Origin: Pedobacter deserti
Lineage (GTDB): Bacteria; Bacteroidota; Bacteroidia; Sphingobacteriales; Sphingobacteriaceae
DNA: 64,000 bases
NCBI RefSeq assembly: GCF_024436415.1
Contig: NZ_JAFMZQ010000001.1
Span: forward strand, 310,001 to 374,000
Reading direction: 5' to 3'
The first letter of the stretch is position 1; every line of letters starts with the position of its first letter. The notes under the pieces are model-generated. The model saw only the letters and a program-made list of their open reading frames with translations. It made no database searches and was not told where the DNA came from. Positions 1 to 11,763 of the stretch are shown here, piece after piece. The position numbers and the translations under genes are program-made.

Positions 1-3000
1 CTACCTCCTTATTAACAGCATTCAGCATGTTTTTAAACAGATTGAAAGCTTCCATTTTATAAATAATCAGCGGATCTTTCTGCTCGTACACAGCGTTCTG
101 CACGGACTGCTTTAACTCATCCATTTCACGCAAATGTTCCTTCCATGACTCGTCGATCAAGGCTAGCACTATTGTCTTTTCGAAAGACTTTGTGACCTCC
201 CGGCCGTTGTTCTCAATCGCTTTCTTTAAACCGACCGGAACCTGGACATGTCTCAATCCATCTGTAAAAGGCACAACAATCTGCTCAATCTGCTCGCCTC
301 TTTCGGCATAAACCTGCTTAAGCACCGGCAAGGCCTGCTCAATAATGGCGTCTGACTTACGTACATAAAACGCGCTCACCTCTTCAAACAGCTTTTCTGT
401 CAGGAGCGCGATGTTTTTAGAACCGAATTCAGCCTCGTCAATAGTTGTATCGGCTGAGAAGTTTTTGATCACCTCCAGCTTAAATCCTTCATAGTTGCCT
501 GCTTCTTTATATTCAGTAACAATATCTTCTGCAACATCAAAAGTCATGTTGCTCATGTCTACATCCAGACGGTCGCCAAACAACGCATTACGGCGTTTTG
601 CATAGATTACCGACCGCTGAGAATTCATGACATCGTCATACTCCAGCAAGCGCTTACGGATACCGAAGTTGTTCTCTTCTACTTTTTTCTGTGCACGTTC
701 TATAGACTTGGTAATCATAGAATGCTGAATCACTTCACCGTCTTCAATGCCCATGCGCACCATGATATTAGAAATCCGTTCCGACCCGAAAAGCCTCATC
801 AGGTTATCTTCCAGGGAGACAAAGAACTGGGAAGAACCGGGATCGCCCTGCCGGCCTGCGCGACCACGCAACTGCCTGTCGACCCGCCGCGATTCATGTC
901 GCTCAGTACCTACAATCGCCAAACCTCCGGCCTCTTTAACGCCCGGGCCCAATTTGATGTCGGTACCACGGCCCGCCATGTTGGTAGCAATGGTAACCTG
1001 ACCCGGTTGACCTGCTTCAGCAACAATGTCCGCTTCCTTCTGGTGCATTTTTGCGTTCAGTACGTTATGCTTAATCCCTCTGAGTTTAAGCATGCGACTA
1101 AGTAACTCGGATATTTCCACAGAAGTGGTACCCACCAGGACCGGCCTGCCTGCTTCAGTCAGTTTTACGATCTCTTCGGCTACGGCGTTATACTTCTCCC
1201 TTACTGTGCGGTATACATAATCCTGATGATCCTTTCTGGAGATTGGCCGGTTGGTTGGTATCTCCACAACGTCCAGTTTATAAATAGACCAGAACTCCCC
1301 GGCCTCCGTTGTTGCCGTACCTGTCATACCGCAAAGCTTGTGGTACATCCTGAAAAAGTTTTGCAGGGTAACCGTTGCGTATGTCTGTGAAGCATCTTCT
1401 ACTTTAACATTCTCCTTTGCTTCGATTGCCTGGTGTAATCCATCAGAATAACGGCGCCCGTCCATAATACGGCCGGTCTGCTCATCAACGATCTTAATTT
1501 TACCTTCATCAATGATATACTCCACATCCTTCTCGAAAAGCGTATAGGCTTTTAACAATTGGTTTACGGAGTGAATGCGTTCTGCTTTGATAGAATAATC
1601 ACGCATCAGGGCATCCTTCTGCGTAATCTTGTCCTCGTTGCTTAATGAAGATTTTTCTATATCGGCGATGGCTGTACCAACATCCGGCAAAACAAAGAAT
1701 TGCGGATCTTCACCTGATTTGGTAATCAGTTCTATTCCCTTTTCTGTCAATTCGACCTGATTATTTTTTTCGTCAATATGAAAATACAGTTCAGCATCGA
1801 CTTTAGGCATATTCTTCGACTGATCTGCCATATAGTGATGTTCCGTTTTTAACAAAGTCTGCTTTACACTGCCTTCACTTAAAAACTTAATGAGTGCTTT
1901 ATTTTTAGGCAAACCGCGATAAGCGCGCAATAATGCAAGTCCGCCTTCCCCTTCTTCGGGGCCGGGTTTACCATCATTGATCAATTTCTTGGCTTCGTTT
2001 AACGCACGTGTAACGAATTCCTTCTGGGCTGTAACCAAGCGTTCAATTCTTGGCTTCAGCTCATAGAACTCATGCTGATCACCAAATGGGACAGGACCTG
2101 AGATAATTAAAGGGGTACGTGCATCGTCGATAAGTACGGAGTCGACCTCATCTACCATGGCAAAATGCAGTTTGCGCTGTACCAACTGATCAGGCGTTTG
2201 CGACATGTTATCGCGCAGATAATCGAAACCAAACTCATTATTTGTGCCATATGTGATGTCGGCCAGATACGCATTTCTGCGTTCCTGAGAGTTAGGTTCG
2301 TGTTTGTCGATACAATCAACTTTTAAACCGTGGAATTCAAACAGCGGACCGTTCCACTCAGAGTCACGACGTGCAAGGTAGTCGTTGACCGTAACGATAT
2401 GAACACCCTGGCCGGCAAGGGCATTAAGGTAAGCAGGTAATGTACTAACCAAGGTTTTACCCTCACCAGTAGCCATCTCAGCAATTTTGCCTTCATGCAA
2501 CACCATACCCCCGATCAGCTGCACATCGTAATGAACCATGTTCCATACTACGTCATTACCTGCGGCTTCCCATTTGTTGGCCCACACGGCTTTATTACCA
2601 CTGATGGTCACGTTTTTCTTCCTGGCAGCATATTCCCGGTCAAAGTCGGTCGCGGTAACCTCTAGGTCGCCTTGAGAAAAACGCCTTGAAGTTTCCTTTA
2701 CCACGGCAAAGGCCTCGGGCAATATCTGCTTTAAGACTACCTCTAACGCTTTATCTCTTTCTTTGGCAAGAGCATCAATCTGGTCGTACAACGCTGTCTT
2801 TTCAGAGAGGCCCTTCTCAGGCTGTTCTGCCTCGTGTTTCAGTACCTCCATTTTGCCATCTATTTCTGTGAGGGCAATGGCGATGGTCTCCTTAAATTCG
2901 GCTGTTTTACTTCGCAACTCGTCATTACTAAGTGTTGCAAGCTTCGCATAAGCTTCGTTGATCTGACTTACTACCGGCTGTATCGCCTTTATATCTCTTT

Positions 3001-6100: not shown

Positions 6101-7282
6101 TTATAGTAGCTTTTGATAAGTGCGCCACCACAGATCCGGCATTTCACCTTCTACGGCAAGAGTATAATCCTCATAACGGCAAGGCACGAGATGAAAGCGT
6201 TCATTTTTCGATATTCCGGCAGGATACGGCACCTGCATCCACCAACGATCAGACTTCTTGCTTTTAACAAATAACATTTCACCACTTCCGTCGCTTAAAC
6301 TTGCCCGGTATATCAGATACTGGGATTTCGGCACCAACGGAAAATCTTTTTTCCGATTGTAAAATCCATCGATGAAATACCATATAATCTGCGCCAGCAG
6401 CATGGCAGTTTGCCCATTTTGGTCGAAAACGGGATTAAACTCGTAAAAACCTATTGAGGTAAGCTTATCGCTCATACCCGCATAACGCGAAATCTGGCAG
6501 GCCTGTTCACCATAAAACCCGTTAGGTCCCGCATTGGCATTCGCCGCCGCATCGGATGAGCGAACCGCGCCTATGTCAAAACTGATCATGCTGGCATTTC
6601 TCAGTATCGGCTCAGTAAGTGAGATATCGTCAGAGAACTCTCCAAGGCGGTGAACATCAAAATAGAGCTTACTCATTACTTTCAAACTTTCCTGATTGAC
6701 AAAGTAGGTCTGGTAGCCAATATTGCTGAAGTTGAAGAGGTAATTAGGTTGATGCAGCAGTATTTTATTGAGGTATGTATCGGATCTTGCTGCCAGACCT
6801 TCCCCATCTTCTTCATCCAAATCAAACTTACTGTCAACCACTACGAGATCCACTTTTTGCTCAAGACTTTCATAAGCAAGGTATTGAGCATAGGTGATGT
6901 CCTGCCCGCCGCCGATGATCACGGGAGTAATACTCAGTTTGATAAGTTCAGAAACTGTGGTCTTGACGGCCACATAAGTATCCGATATAGCCGCACCTGC
7001 TTTGATGTTGCCCAGATCGACAATTCTGGTTGGATTGGGTCCTTCATTGAGGCTATAAAATTTCTCCCGGAAATAGTCAGGCCCGAGTGCACAACCCTGG
7101 TTATTCACGGCAGCACGATCATCCTGCACCCCTATAAGCGCAATATCATATTCCCCATCGGAAAGATCAGGAAACTCGCCCGTATAAAATGTCACTTTAG
7201 CACCCATCTGACTCGATAAAAAGCCGCTTCCTGGCGTAAAGCTGTTGATATCCAGTGGTAAAAAAAAATCTGATAATGACAT
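6101..7282 (-). CDS. Degenerate arginase/formimidoylglutamase-family protein
   Basis: The 393-residue protein has the ureohydrolase fold pattern (IGVQDDRAAVNNQG, GPDYFREKFY, IIGGGQDITYAQY, SFDIGAVRSSDA) and is usually labelled formimidoylglutamase or arginase in Bacteroidota. Several canonical manganese ligands are changed. The His of GGGHD is Gln127, the His of DAHxD is Lys152, and the second Asp of SxDxD is Gly238; Asp150, Asp154 and Asp236 remain. A normal binuclear Mn site is therefore unlikely, so it may be a non-hydrolytic or repurposed protein. A roughly 80-residue C-terminal extension rich in Trp follows the fold. It is divergent from the epimerase gene; no histidine- or arginine-catabolic gene is nearby. 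Confidence 0.7.
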   Translation of the reverse strand: MSLSDFFLPLDINSFTPGSGFLSSQMGAKVTFYTGEFPDLSDGEYDIALIGVQDDRAAVNNQGCALGPDYFREKFYSLNEGPNPTRIVDLGNIKAGAAISDTYVAVKTTVSELIKLSITPVIIGGGQDITYAQYLAYESLEQKVDLVVVDSKFDLDEEDGEGLAARSDTYLNKILLHQPNYLFNFSNIGYQTYFVNQESLKVMSKLYFDVHRLGEFSDDISLTEPILRNASMISFDIGAVRSSDAAANANAGPNGFYGEQACQISRYAGMSDKLTSIGFYEFNPVFDQNGQTAMLLAQIIWYFIDGFYNRKKDFPLVPKSQYLIYRASLSDGSGEMLFVKSKKSDRWWMQVPYPAGISKNERFHLVPCRYEDYTLAVEGEMPDLWWRTYQKLL

Positions 7283-7312
7283 ATAAGGCTTAAATGTATG
7301 CGGTCAAATATC

Positions 7313-7320
7313 TATTTTTG
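7313..7320 (+). promoter_or_regulatory. -7 promoter element of the epimerase/serB operon
   Basis: TATTTTTG matches TAnnTTTG exactly, 36 bases before the epimerase ATG at 7357. It lies in the 74-base gap between divergent genes. Confidence 0.45.
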
Positions 7321-7356
7321 GGGGGATATTTTAACAAACATCCTAAAAAAATTGCA

Positions 7357-8325
7357 ATGATATTAGTTACGGGTGCTACGGGATTTCTGGGTGCAGAATT
7401 GATTCATCAGCTTACCCGTTCGGGCGCGTATGTGAAAGCTCTGAAACGAGAGCATTCAACGATTCCTTCTCGCATTGCAAGCAATAACGCGATCGAGTGG
7501 ATAAATGCAGATATCAATGACGTGGCTACCCTTGAAGATGTCTTTAGCGGGGTTACGCAGGTATATCACTGCGCTGCATTAGTATCGTTCAGGCCGGCAG
7601 ACAAAAGCCGTCTGTTCAGGATCAACATAGAGGGAACGGCAAACATTGTAAATCTCTGCCTGCAAAATGGCGTGCGTTTACTTCACGTCAGTTCCGTGGC
7701 GGCACTCGGCGATTCAAAGAGCGGCAAAATGATCACAGAGGAAGACTTCTGGGAATATGGAACAAAAACGCATGCGTATGCTGAATCGAAATACGAGGCG
7801 GAAATGGAGGTGTGGCGGGGAATTGCTGAGGGACTAGACGCAGTGATCGTTAACCCGTCTGTGATCATTGGTGGCGGCGCTGGATTTAACGGCAGCGGCC
7901 AACTGTTTAAGCTTATTAAAGAAGGCTTCAGCTTCTACACAAGGGGGGCGACGGGACTGGTAGATGTCGAAGACGTTGCTAGAATCATGATCCTCGCCAT
8001 GCAAAGCAATCATACTGCCGAACGATATATTATATCGGCCGAAAACTATCTTTATCAAAACCTTTTCAAAGAAATAGCTGATGGATTTGGCGTAAAGCCA
8101 CCAACAATAGAAGCAAAGCCCTGGATGATGAAGGTTGGCTGGATGCTCGGAAAATTCCGGTCATTGCTAAGCGGAAAGTCCTCAAACCTCACCCGCGATG
8201 CGATAAAGAGCAGCATTACCAAAAGCTATTACGACAATGACAAAGCGCGTAAAACTTTTAACATAACGTTTAAGCCGCTAAGCCAGAGCATTGCTGAGAC
8301 ATGCTCGGCACTTCAATTTAAATAA
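7357..8325 (+). CDS. NAD(P)-dependent epimerase/dehydratase (extended SDR)
   Basis: A 322-residue extended short-chain dehydrogenase. The start MILVTGATGFLGAELIHQL places the Rossmann GxxGxxG motif (GATGFLG) at the N-terminus; an upstream in-frame ATG would add 21 unlikely residues. The active-site motif YAESK (YxxxK) follows the conserved HVSSVAALG strand, and INPS-type residues appear as VNPSVIIG. The sequence is closest to the dihydroflavonol-4-reductase/3-beta-HSD-like group; the substrate cannot be deduced. It precedes the serB-type gene by only 4 bases, so the two are very likely co-transcribed. Confidence 0.85.
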   Translation: MILVTGATGFLGAELIHQLTRSGAYVKALKREHSTIPSRIASNNAIEWINADINDVATLEDVFSGVTQVYHCAALVSFRPADKSRLFRINIEGTANIVNLCLQNGVRLLHVSSVAALGDSKSGKMITEEDFWEYGTKTHAYAESKYEAEMEVWRGIAEGLDAVIVNPSVIIGGGAGFNGSGQLFKLIKEGFSFYTRGATGLVDVEDVARIMILAMQSNHTAERYIISAENYLYQNLFKEIADGFGVKPPTIEAKPWMMKVGWMLGKFRSLLSGKSSNLTRDAIKSSITKSYYDNDKARKTFNITFKPLSQSIAETCSALQFK

Positions 8326-8329
8326 CCAC

Positions 8330-9628
8330 ATGAAACAGAGAAACTTTTACATTATCGATTTTGACAGCACCTTCACGCAGGTAGAGGCGCTTGACGAACT
8401 TGCGCGGATCTCACTTAAAAATCATCCTGATCGCGAGGCAATATTCCAAAAAATCGAAGAGTATACGAATATGGCTATGGAAGGCAGGCTCTCCTTCGGG
8501 GAAAGCCTGAGCCAGCGGGTAAAATTGCTTGAGGCAAACGAAGACCACCTTAAACAATTAATCACCCGGCTCAAGAAGAAAGTGTCGGCTTCCTTTTCAC
8601 GAAACGCTGAATTCTTCAGAAAACATGCAGACGAAGTGCTGATTGTTTCGGGCGGATTCAAGGAATTTATAACCCCGGTCGTGAGCCGCTACCATATCAG
8701 GAAAGAAAATATCTATGCAAATACGTTTGTAACGAATGGCGACGGGCAGATCATTGATTATGACCACGCAAATCCACTCAGCGAAGAGGGCGGGAAGGTA
8801 AAACTGATGCAGCAACTTGATCTTAAAGGCGACCTTTACGGGATCGGAGATGGTTATTCGGACTTTCAACTCCGGGAAAGCGGATTAATCAAAAAGTTCT
8901 ATGCATTCACAGAGAACATCTCCAGAGCAAACATCATAGAAAAAGCCGACCATGTTACGCCAAGCTTCGACGAATTCCTATATGTAAATAACCTGCCGAG
9001 GGCTATCTCCTATCCTAAAAACCGAATCCTTTGCCTGGTTCTTGGCGATGCTGATCCGTTGAGCATCGAACTACTCAAGAAAGACGGCTTCTCCATCCGG
9101 CACAAACCTACGTTTGAAGAAAAATACGTCGCAGATGTGCATATGATCTTACTCGCTAATGGCGAAAAAATTGATCCGGAAACACTGAAGCGTGCCGTGA
9201 AACTAAAAACGGTTGGGTATTTGGGCAACGCGCGAAACCGGGTAGATGCTGCGCTCTGCGTACAGCAAGGCGTTGTTCTCTTTGACGACCCTAAGGGCAA
9301 CCCGCGCAACTACACCTTCATACCCAAACGTATGATCGACTTTATGAACACGGGCACCACCTATCTGAGCAGTAACTTTCCGAACCTGCAACTGCCGAGA
9401 ATTGAAAGGTCCCACAGACTGATTCATATTCACAAGAACGTCCCTGGTATAATGGCCAAAATAAACACGGTGTTTGCCAAACATGACATTAACATTGTGG
9501 GGCAGTTCCTGATGACGAATCCGGAGATTGGATATGTGATTACAGATATCAATACTCAATATGACAAGCAGTTATTCAAATCGCTTAAAAAGATTGAACA
9601 TACGATAAAATTCAGGGTTTTATATTAA
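8330..9628 (+). CDS. serB: Phosphoserine phosphatase fused to SerA remnant and ACT domain
   Basis: A 432-residue composite protein. Residues 1-215 are a HAD-IB phosphatase with DFDST (Asp10/Asp12), VSGGF, a Lys in GGKVKL and GIGDGYSDF, all intact as in SerB, which makes L-serine from phosphoserine. Residues about 231-355 read like 3-phosphoglycerate dehydrogenase (SerA) with the NAD-binding domain deleted: TVGYLGNARNRVDAA then NTGTTYLSSNFPNLQLP. Residues 362-432 are a SerA-type ACT domain; His368, Asn370 and Asn388 correspond to E. coli SerA His344, Asn346 and Asn364, which bind the feedback inhibitor serine. Inference: a serine-sensing phosphatase. The ATG at 8330 follows the epimerase stop closely. 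Confidence 0.88.
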   Translation: MKQRNFYIIDFDSTFTQVEALDELARISLKNHPDREAIFQKIEEYTNMAMEGRLSFGESLSQRVKLLEANEDHLKQLITRLKKKVSASFSRNAEFFRKHADEVLIVSGGFKEFITPVVSRYHIRKENIYANTFVTNGDGQIIDYDHANPLSEEGGKVKLMQQLDLKGDLYGIGDGYSDFQLRESGLIKKFYAFTENISRANIIEKADHVTPSFDEFLYVNNLPRAISYPKNRILCLVLGDADPLSIELLKKDGFSIRHKPTFEEKYVADVHMILLANGEKIDPETLKRAVKLKTVGYLGNARNRVDAALCVQQGVVLFDDPKGNPRNYTFIPKRMIDFMNTGTTYLSSNFPNLQLPRIERSHRLIHIHKNVPGIMAKINTVFAKHDINIVGQFLMTNPEIGYVITDINTQYDKQLFKSLKKIEHTIKFRVLY

Positions 9629-10698: not shown

Positions 10699-11763
10699 AT
10701 GAACGAGACGTTGGACATCACGATCACACAAGCTGATCAAAGCAGATTAACGGGAACTGATTTTTCGCAGTTGCCCTTCGGGAAAGTATTCTCCGATCAC
10801 ATGTTTATTGCTGAATACAAGGATGGCGAGTGGTCAAACCTGCAGGTCCTGCCTTACGGTCCTATTCCAATGAGCCCTGCTATATCTGCCTTGCACTACG
10901 GACAGGCAATATTTGAGGGACTAAAAGCTTATCGCCAGGCCAACGGGAAGATCAATGTTTTCAGAGCCGATAAAAATCACGAACGTTTTAATAAATCCGC
11001 TCACCGCATGGCTATGCCCGCCATCCCCAGGGAGATTTTTATGCAAGGCATCGCTGCGCTTCTTGATATCGACGAAAAATGGATTCCTTCCCAAGATGGA
11101 TATTCCCTGTATATTCGTCCGGTGATGTATGCAACGGATCCTTATTTGGGCGTGAGAGCATCCGAGACCTATACGTTTGCATTGCTTACTACACCCACGG
11201 GACCATATTACAGTCAGCCACTTAAGGTTAAGATTGAAACTGAATATACACGCGCAGACGACGGAGGAGTTGGCTTTGCTAAAACAGCTGGTAATTATGC
11301 CCGCTCTTTATATCCATTTGCGGAAGCCCAAAAAGAAGGTTATGACCAGCTTATCTGGACAGATGCCGCAACACATGAGTATATCGAAGAAGCGGGAACA
11401 GCGAACCTGATATTTGTGATCAACGGCAAGCTTGTCACACCATCAGTAAGAAGCACTGTTCTGGATGGGGTTACCCGCGACACCATTTTGACGCTGGCGA
11501 AGAAAGCAGGAATCGAAGTTGAAGAACGCCGTGTAAGCGTAAAAGAAATCATCGAAGGAATTAACGATGGCTCTGTCACTGACGCCTTCGCCGCAGGTAC
11601 TGCCGCTACGGTTACTCCTATTGGAGAGATTGGGTATCAGGGCTCCCTTTATAAACTTTCTGACCCGGCCTCCCGTACAATCTCATCTGGAATAGCTAAA
11701 ACCCTTAACGACATCCGATACGGCCTCAGTGAAGACGAGCTTGGCTGGAACTGGACGATCTAA
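10699..11763 (+). CDS. ilvE: Branched-chain amino acid aminotransferase IlvE
   Basis: A fold-type IV PLP transaminase interconverting Leu, Ile and Val with their 2-oxo acids using glutamate/2-oxoglutarate. The 354 residues match the long (mitochondrial-like, class II) BCAT: HYGQAIFEGLKAYR, RPVMYAT, the PLP lysine region GFAKTAGNYARSL, EEAGTANLIFVI, VLDGVTRDTILTLA and AFAAGTAATVTPIG. It is a monocistronic gene with its own promoter and a strong terminator directly after the stop. No other ilv/leu genes are linked here. Confidence 0.94.
   Translation: MNETLDITITQADQSRLTGTDFSQLPFGKVFSDHMFIAEYKDGEWSNLQVLPYGPIPMSPAISALHYGQAIFEGLKAYRQANGKINVFRADKNHERFNKSAHRMAMPAIPREIFMQGIAALLDIDEKWIPSQDGYSLYIRPVMYATDPYLGVRASETYTFALLTTPTGPYYSQPLKVKIETEYTRADDGGVGFAKTAGNYARSLYPFAEAQKEGYDQLIWTDAATHEYIEEAGTANLIFVINGKLVTPSVRSTVLDGVTRDTILTLAKKAGIEVEERRVSVKEIIEGINDGSVTDAFAAGTAATVTPIGEIGYQGSLYKLSDPASRTISSGIAKTLNDIRYGLSEDELGWNWTI

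Follow-up and report, generated by a model that had tools for sequence, protein, structure and literature searches.

A predicted phosphoserine phosphatase of Pedobacter deserti carrying a gutted phosphoglycerate dehydrogenase and its ACT domain

The window analysed here is a stretch of 64,000 nucleotides from Pedobacter deserti and harbors, on the forward strand (8330–9628; ATG at 8330, stop codon at 9626–9628), a gene whose 432-residue product consists of a phosphatase followed by the substrate-binding domain and the ACT domain of the 3-phosphoglycerate dehydrogenase SerA. We think it rather probable that this product is the phosphoserine phosphatase of the cell, carrying the remnant of a type II phosphoglycerate dehydrogenase (PGDH) that was first fused to it and then gutted, and that it is slowed by serine through the ACT domain. 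ACT-regulated phosphatases and serine-inhibited dehydrogenases are already known, each separately. What is unusual is a bifunctional fusion followed by the precise loss of the catalytic domain of one partner, with the sensor kept on the other, and that the states before and after the deletion both survive in living lineages. One small protein poses here a general question, namely whether a deletion can re-aim an allosteric unit at a new catalytic domain. A search of open-access full text, which is weak evidence since most subscription journals lie outside it, returned no description of the full SerB-SerA fusion or of the gutted form.

Domain organization and identity of the phosphatase

The first 226 residues (8330–9007) form a HAD-IB phosphatase domain, as indicated by Pfam HAD (residues 9–181, 34.1 bits, cut-off 27), TIGR01488 for HAD-IB family phosphatases (64.6 bits, above the cut-off of 45), the fold, and invariant motifs. 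They are followed by the fusion junction SYPKNRI (residues 227–233, 9008–9028) and by the first part of the SerA substrate-binding domain (residues 230–327, 9017–9310), detected with Pfam 2-Hacid_dh (residues 236–326, 26.7 bits, cut-off 24.6) and by its fold, which spans residues 230–342. Set against the usual domain boundaries of SerA, residues 327 and 328 (9310/9311), which align with residues 111 and 305 of E. coli SerA, directly adjoin, with no NAD-binding domain between them. Beyond this site, the returning helix of the substrate-binding domain (residues 327–341 in the AlphaFold2 model) and the linker NTGTTYLSSNFPNLQLP extend up to residue 360 (9311–9409), and the ACT domain occupies residues 361–432 (9410–9625), supported by Pfam ACT_AHAS_ss (residues 364–427, 49.8 bits, cut-off 27) and fold.

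For the NAD-binding domain itself (2-Hacid_dh_C), no Pfam match was obtained in the 432-residue protein. The NCBIfam SerA model NF008759 matched with an E-value of 4.2e-44 and its best stretch at residues 330–432, while phmmer against the PDB aligned E. coli SerA (2p9c) in two stretches flanking the NAD core, namely residues 226–328 on chain positions 4–112, weak alone (i-Evalue 0.16) but backed by Pfam and fold, and residues 333–432 on chain positions 310–410. The Pfam substrate domain went unrecognised at E 0.001 in 22 of the 79 alignment members. A preliminary description of this gene had followed SerA from the substrate domain straight to the linker and ACT domain, with the NAD core missing, and fold and alignment agree with it. 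Chance resemblance or an assembly error could be dismissed, as the protein occurs in 249 of the 250 genomes searched from the order and 117 of 121 distinct proteins have the same deletion bounds; a decaying pseudogene was likewise dismissed based on a whole-protein dN/dS of 0.020. Rfam revealed no RNA element in the window at gathering thresholds.

The phosphatase half displays the motif residues DFDST (10–14), Glu19, Arg63, Ser107, Lys156, and GDGYSD (173–178). HAD phosphatases are characterized by a set of four motifs, and D10, D12, S107, K156, D174, and D178 were invariant in all 121 gutted proteins, in line with the active site having been called complete at the outset; the motif residues are also invariant in the 25 full fusions. 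Glu19 and Arg63, which we take to be the substrate-recognising residues of phosphoserine phosphatase, align with Glu and Arg of the human enzyme and were found in 79 of 79 alignment rows. In the AlphaFold2 model, residues 4–222 superpose on the phosphoserine phosphatase-like protein 3kd3 (Z 28.2) and residues 3–225 on human phosphoserine phosphatase 6q6j (Z 26.0).

With the SerB equivalog model TIGR00338, the protein scored 61.3 bits, below the cut-off of 144.15; across 24 genomes a single match passed this cut-off, and it was neither a fused nor a gutted protein. When the genome of the window was searched with the SerB model, the gutted protein was the only strong match (66.5 bits), the two others being a 785-residue frame at 22.8 bits and a 677-residue frame at 22.6 bits. 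No other SerB was found in this genome, which is 95.3% complete, so that the absence is not certain; two complete genomes of the same genus (G080, G138) have one match each to the whole protein. The gene probably encodes the phosphoserine phosphatase of the cell, with hydrolysis of phosphoserine as its predicted reaction. In the rows of GapMind Table 1 considered here, a prototrophic Pedobacter strain has only a lysine gap and no serine gap (PMC7311316), so that its SerB may already be counted there. Among the NCBIfam models listed, 'HAD-IB family phosphatase' is the single one whose cut-off the gutted protein exceeded; for three full fusions, the cut-offs exceeded were this one and that of 'phosphoglycerate dehydrogenase', with no others. 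Annotation is affected, since the phosphoserine phosphatase step goes unnamed in gutted and full proteins alike. One genome that also encodes a full fusion has a further SerB-like phosphatase within a frame of 498 residues (G190:C19:16448-17095, L158).

Distribution of the two forms and loss of the dehydrogenase core

The same architecture was sought across Bacteroidota, a check already named in the preliminary description. At E 1e-10, 87 of 395 sampled genomes of the phylum matched the protein: 12 carried the gutted form from end to end and 25 a SerB-SerA fusion of 627–635 residues (L013–L030, L133, L171–L176), aligning with approximately residues 1–331 and then 329–432 with about 190 residues between; six matched through an unfused phosphatase, four of these also through a separate SerA ACT domain, and 44 by the ACT end only. 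In the order of the window, 249 of 250 genomes matched, each with a best E-value of at most 4.8e-175, and were taken as gutted because the best full fusion reaches E 3.6e-98. The sole genome of these 250 without a match to the protein (G484) belongs to the same genus. According to record titles, which cover 80 of the 123 loci encoding a relative (all 80 gutted, 429–439 residues), the relatives comprise Pedobacter, Daejeonella, Nubsella, and others mostly of the Sphingobacteriaceae or Sphingobacteriales. In family f2, to which G269 belongs, 6 of 195 genomes, spread over two genera, harbor the gutted gene. Though 110 plasmid records gave a match, none covered 80% of the protein in one place, and carriage on plasmids was therefore rejected.

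The AlphaFold2 model, built on a 79-row alignment, reached a pLDDT of 92.9 and a pTM of 0.85. Its residues 229–432 superpose as one unit on E. coli SerA (1psd, 7..410; 203 residues, 1.7 A, Z 26.4), so that the two SerA pieces re-form one substrate-binding fold, with the ACT domain keeping its SerA position relative to it. The SerA-like nature of the middle region, first noticed by reading along the sequence, is therefore recovered by modelling and superposition on SerA, and the N-terminal part superposes on phosphoserine phosphatases.

When 121 distinct gutted proteins were aligned with 25 full ones, the deletion was seen to run from residue 111 to residue 305 of E. coli SerA, with the same bounds in 117 of the 121, and 192–193 residues are missing relative to the full fusions. 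E. coli SerA residues 112–304 have no counterpart in the gutted proteins. The catalytic residues Arg240, Glu269, and His292 fall into the gap in all 121, and the position of the pocket arginine, R60, is occupied by A, G, or D in every one of them. From the alignment, the SerA substrate pocket of the gutted proteins is judged lost, which points to a SerA half that has become nothing more than sensor and lever. K141, R240, E269, and H292 (E. coli numbers) are present in every one of the 25 full fusions, which thus should be active dehydrogenases; if so, a single polypeptide should catalyse both the first and the last step of serine synthesis.

Alignment columns without variation among the full fusions have kept their residue in the majority of gutted proteins to an extent that differs between the three domains (phosphatase 41/41, substrate domain 14/32, ACT domain 23/24). 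The same contrast appeared in dN/dS, which, over 18 independent close pairs of 59, amounted to 0.012 for the phosphatase, 0.040 for the substrate domain, and 0.010 for the ACT domain; these are counting estimates, good for the contrast between domains and not as exact values. Comparison of the sequences supports strong purifying selection on the gutted protein since the deletion.

With respect to its origin, no variation was seen at five junction residues (S227, Y228, P229, R232, and I233) in any of the 79 alignment rows (54 gutted proteins, 25 full ones). In a tree computed from the phosphatase part (69 rows, midpoint root, with L182 of G365 and L176 on very long branches), all 36 gutted rows fell into one clade (support 100/99) adjoining the two full fusions of family f47 (support 99/93). 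This single clade beside full fusions, together with the common junction, indicates that gutting took place after fusion. The preliminary description had a phosphatase absorbing an already gutted SerA; the full fusions in 25 of 395 genomes, the junction, and the clade point to the reverse order. One clade and one junction also disfavor repeated independent fusions of a SerA fragment, and an insertion of the NAD domain into a gutted ancestor is disfavored by the fused dehydrogenase being collinear with SerA over its whole length (NF008759 4–410 in L013). The gutted rows of family f2 are placed in the tree such that four changes of label are required, a sign of horizontal transfer.

Unfused neighbors were also encountered. 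In G706 (L238), the serB stop codon is followed by three bases and then the serA ATG, and the SerA start MDTTLSFPKNKINVLLLENVHP resembles the fused junction; in G781 (L239), serB and serA lie two bases apart, and the SerA reading frame of G365 is open right from the stop codon of serB. The pairs of G706 and G781 fall within an unresolved group with full fusions, only rows of families f48 and f55 lying outside, so that these abutting genes represent either a state before fusion or a later split.

The second SerA and its association with serC

Besides the gutted protein, the genome of the window encodes a 316-residue protein beside serC, which we call SerA because of this position and its PDB matches. 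It has no ACT domain and passes no NCBIfam equivalog cut-off; the other dehydrogenase of the SerA superfamily in this genome is a 308-residue frame. A whole-protein search of the genome for a second ACT domain of the SerA kind returned, up to E 1, only the gutted protein itself, although at 95.3% completeness the absence of another sensor is not certain either. Thus, the one SerA-type serine sensor found for the pathway sits on its last enzyme. A review describes type III PGDHs as not regulated by serine (PMC6300728), and a family survey places ACT-less PGDHs of type IIIK in Bacteroidetes (PMC6303947).

Using SerC (P0002) and the short SerA (P0003) of this genome as probes, we searched 43 genomes. 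Both the 11 gutted genomes from the window's family and the nine f4 genomes with a full fusion have, without exception, a short SerA beside SerC. For the remaining 16 full-fusion genomes (families f8, f9, f10, and f47), no such pair was detected at the thresholds used, and in 14 of them the fusion itself was the best match to the short SerA. In the other two, both of family f47, a separate dehydrogenase of 324–325 residues slightly outscored the fusion, so that these may also hold a second SerA, without SerC found nearby. As a correlation, this reads as a series from the fusion alone, via the fusion plus a second SerA, to the gutted fusion plus a second SerA, though the f47 dehydrogenase weakens it. 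Since the short SerA occurs in the gutted genomes and in one full-fusion family, the fused dehydrogenase could have become redundant before its loss.

The gutted protein is not always the only sensor: G269, a gutted genome outside the window's family, has a 384-residue SerA beside SerC with its own ACT-like end of another type (L244:1872-3026 (-)), and four of the six gutted genomes of family f2 keep a separate SerA-type ACT match. As a minor observation, G186 harbors near its full fusion an aminotransferase-like frame (L184:2838-3914 (-)) that is about 25% identical to the usual SerC and is possibly an alternative SerC.

Serine pocket, proposed control, and rival explanations

Three residues of the ACT domain, His368 (codon 9431–9433), Asn370 (9437–9439), and Asn388 (9491–9493), align with His344, Asn346, and Asn364 of E. 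coli SerA, which confirms the correspondence to the serine ligands that had been read from the sequence before; none of the three varies among the 121 gutted or the 25 full proteins. In E. coli SerA, the carboxylate of serine is bound by His344 and its amino group by Asn346 and by Asn364 of the neighboring chain, and upon binding the unit of substrate-binding and ACT domains rotates against the nucleotide domain (PMC6300728); exchange of His344 and Asn346 for alanine relieved the enzyme of serine inhibition according to a strain-engineering paper (PMC9612172). Given these conserved ligands, the gutted protein would be expected to bind serine. The Gly-Gly hinge of E. coli SerA (336–337) is not conserved, with Arg and Ser in its place, and three ACT residues that never vary among the full fusions, Gly367, Tyr369, and Val379 in E. 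coli numbering, show more variation among the gutted proteins.

Compared with known systems, the nearest relative of the gutted form is the full SerB-SerA fusion of Bacteroidota, which has the phosphatase, junction, substrate domain, and ACT domain in common with it and differs in retaining the NAD domain and the catalytic residues of the dehydrogenase at 627–635 residues. With E. coli SerA, a type II PGDH, the gutted protein shares the mutual arrangement of substrate-binding fold and ACT domain as well as the three serine ligands; unlike that enzyme, it lacks the NAD domain, the catalytic residues, and the pocket arginine and is joined to a phosphatase. Mycobacterial SerB2, whose activity is inhibited and whose oligomer is shifted by serine (PMC10564941), likewise combines a phosphoserine phosphatase fold (M. 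avium SerB, e.g., 5jlp, Z 22.6) with ACT domains. In contrast to the two N-terminal ACT domains of SerB2 (PMC4270767), the gutted protein possesses one C-terminal ACT domain of SerA type (361–432), separated from the phosphatase by a SerA substrate domain; a tandem N-terminal ACT is absent, the phosphatase beginning at residue 1. A further fusion within the three-step serine pathway is the PGDH-PSAT protein of oomycetes and brown algae, which differs in being eukaryotic and joining steps one and two, with no loss of a catalytic core described in the part of that paper considered (PMC5715807).

Based on these features, the following course may be proposed. Comparison supports its first part: serB and serA were joined into one bifunctional protein, and an ancestor of the window's family later lost the NAD-binding core of about 193 residues in frame, the phosphatase retaining a closed substrate-binding fold and the ACT domain. 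Two ACT domains would pair and, in the manner of E. coli SerA, hold L-serine between them, with one chain contributing His368 and Asn370 and the other Asn388; serine would then move the substrate-binding/ACT unit or alter the oligomer. As the NAD domain against which this unit formerly moved is absent, the movement would act on the phosphatase and slow it. Inhibition is favored over activation by analogy, since serine inhibits both E. coli SerA and mycobacterial SerB2. Counting against this course is that the SerA mechanism rotates the unit against the very NAD domain that is absent here, and that the Gly-Gly hinge is missing too; serine could also activate, or act merely by product inhibition at the active site. 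The score below the SerB equivalog cut-off, the additional sensors of family f2 and G269, and the more variable ACT residues speak against it as well. For the wider proposal, i.e., that this family moved serine feedback from the first to the last enzyme by excision of the core, with an unregulated ACT-less SerA taking over step one and the SerA unit serving as lever, we see the arguments as evenly balanced. If true, it would be the phosphoserine pool that grows under an ample supply of serine.

Among the other explanations, it is unlikely, though worth keeping in view, that the SerA remnant is only a scaffold, holding a phosphatase dimer or tetramer together via ACT-ACT contacts, with serine exerting no allosteric effect. 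The dead substrate pocket and the missing hinge would fit this, and ACT domains of PGDHs are not always functional according to a review; the same review, however, describes altered ACT residues in the serine-insensitive mammalian PGDHs (PMC6300728), whereas here all three serine ligands are invariant and the ACT domain is, by dN/dS, as constrained as the catalytic domain. That the ACT domain senses a ligand other than serine, e.g., a branched-chain amino acid, seems improbable. Its best Pfam model is that of acetohydroxyacid synthase small subunits, and the gene at 10699–11763 (+), presumably encoding a branched-chain aminotransferase-like protein, lies downstream in 64 of 66 named loci, but the pocket has the His344/Asn346/Asn364 set of SerA, and the closest PDB sequences to the ACT stretch are SerA.

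The superposition of the substrate-ACT unit on SerA and the lack of an ACT domain in the short SerA would also suit a regulation in trans, in which this unit docks on the ACT-less SerA of the cell and confers serine control, the phosphatase being a mere carrier. We regard this as highly improbable, since the gutted genomes of family f2 have other SerAs, as seen from the separate ACT matches and the ACT-bearing SerA of G269, and since the columns facing the lost domain, as far as their orientation can be deduced, have drifted. Finally, the failed SerB equivalog cut-off might be taken to mean that the phosphatase is not the SerB of the pathway and acts on another substrate, e.g., histidinol phosphate, and annotated phosphoserine phosphatases were indeed proposed to be histidinol phosphatases in four other bacteria (PMC5764234). 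This appears extremely improbable for a protein that has a common origin with SerA-fused proteins, gives the sole strong SerB match of a genome that also has serC and serA, and finds its nearest folds among phosphoserine phosphatases; the GapMind rows without a serine gap for the prototrophic Pedobacter strain (PMC7311316) argue in the same direction.

The surroundings of the phosphatase gene are conserved as well. The upstream gene (7294–8325, +) ends four bases before the ATG, so that both are likely on the same transcript. All 66 named loci tested have it on the strand of the phosphatase gene, and in most of them it is the immediate upstream neighbor; we assume its product to be SDR-like. 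In all 66 named loci, the gene at 6101–7282 (-), whose product we presume to be arginase-like, is likewise located near the phosphatase gene.
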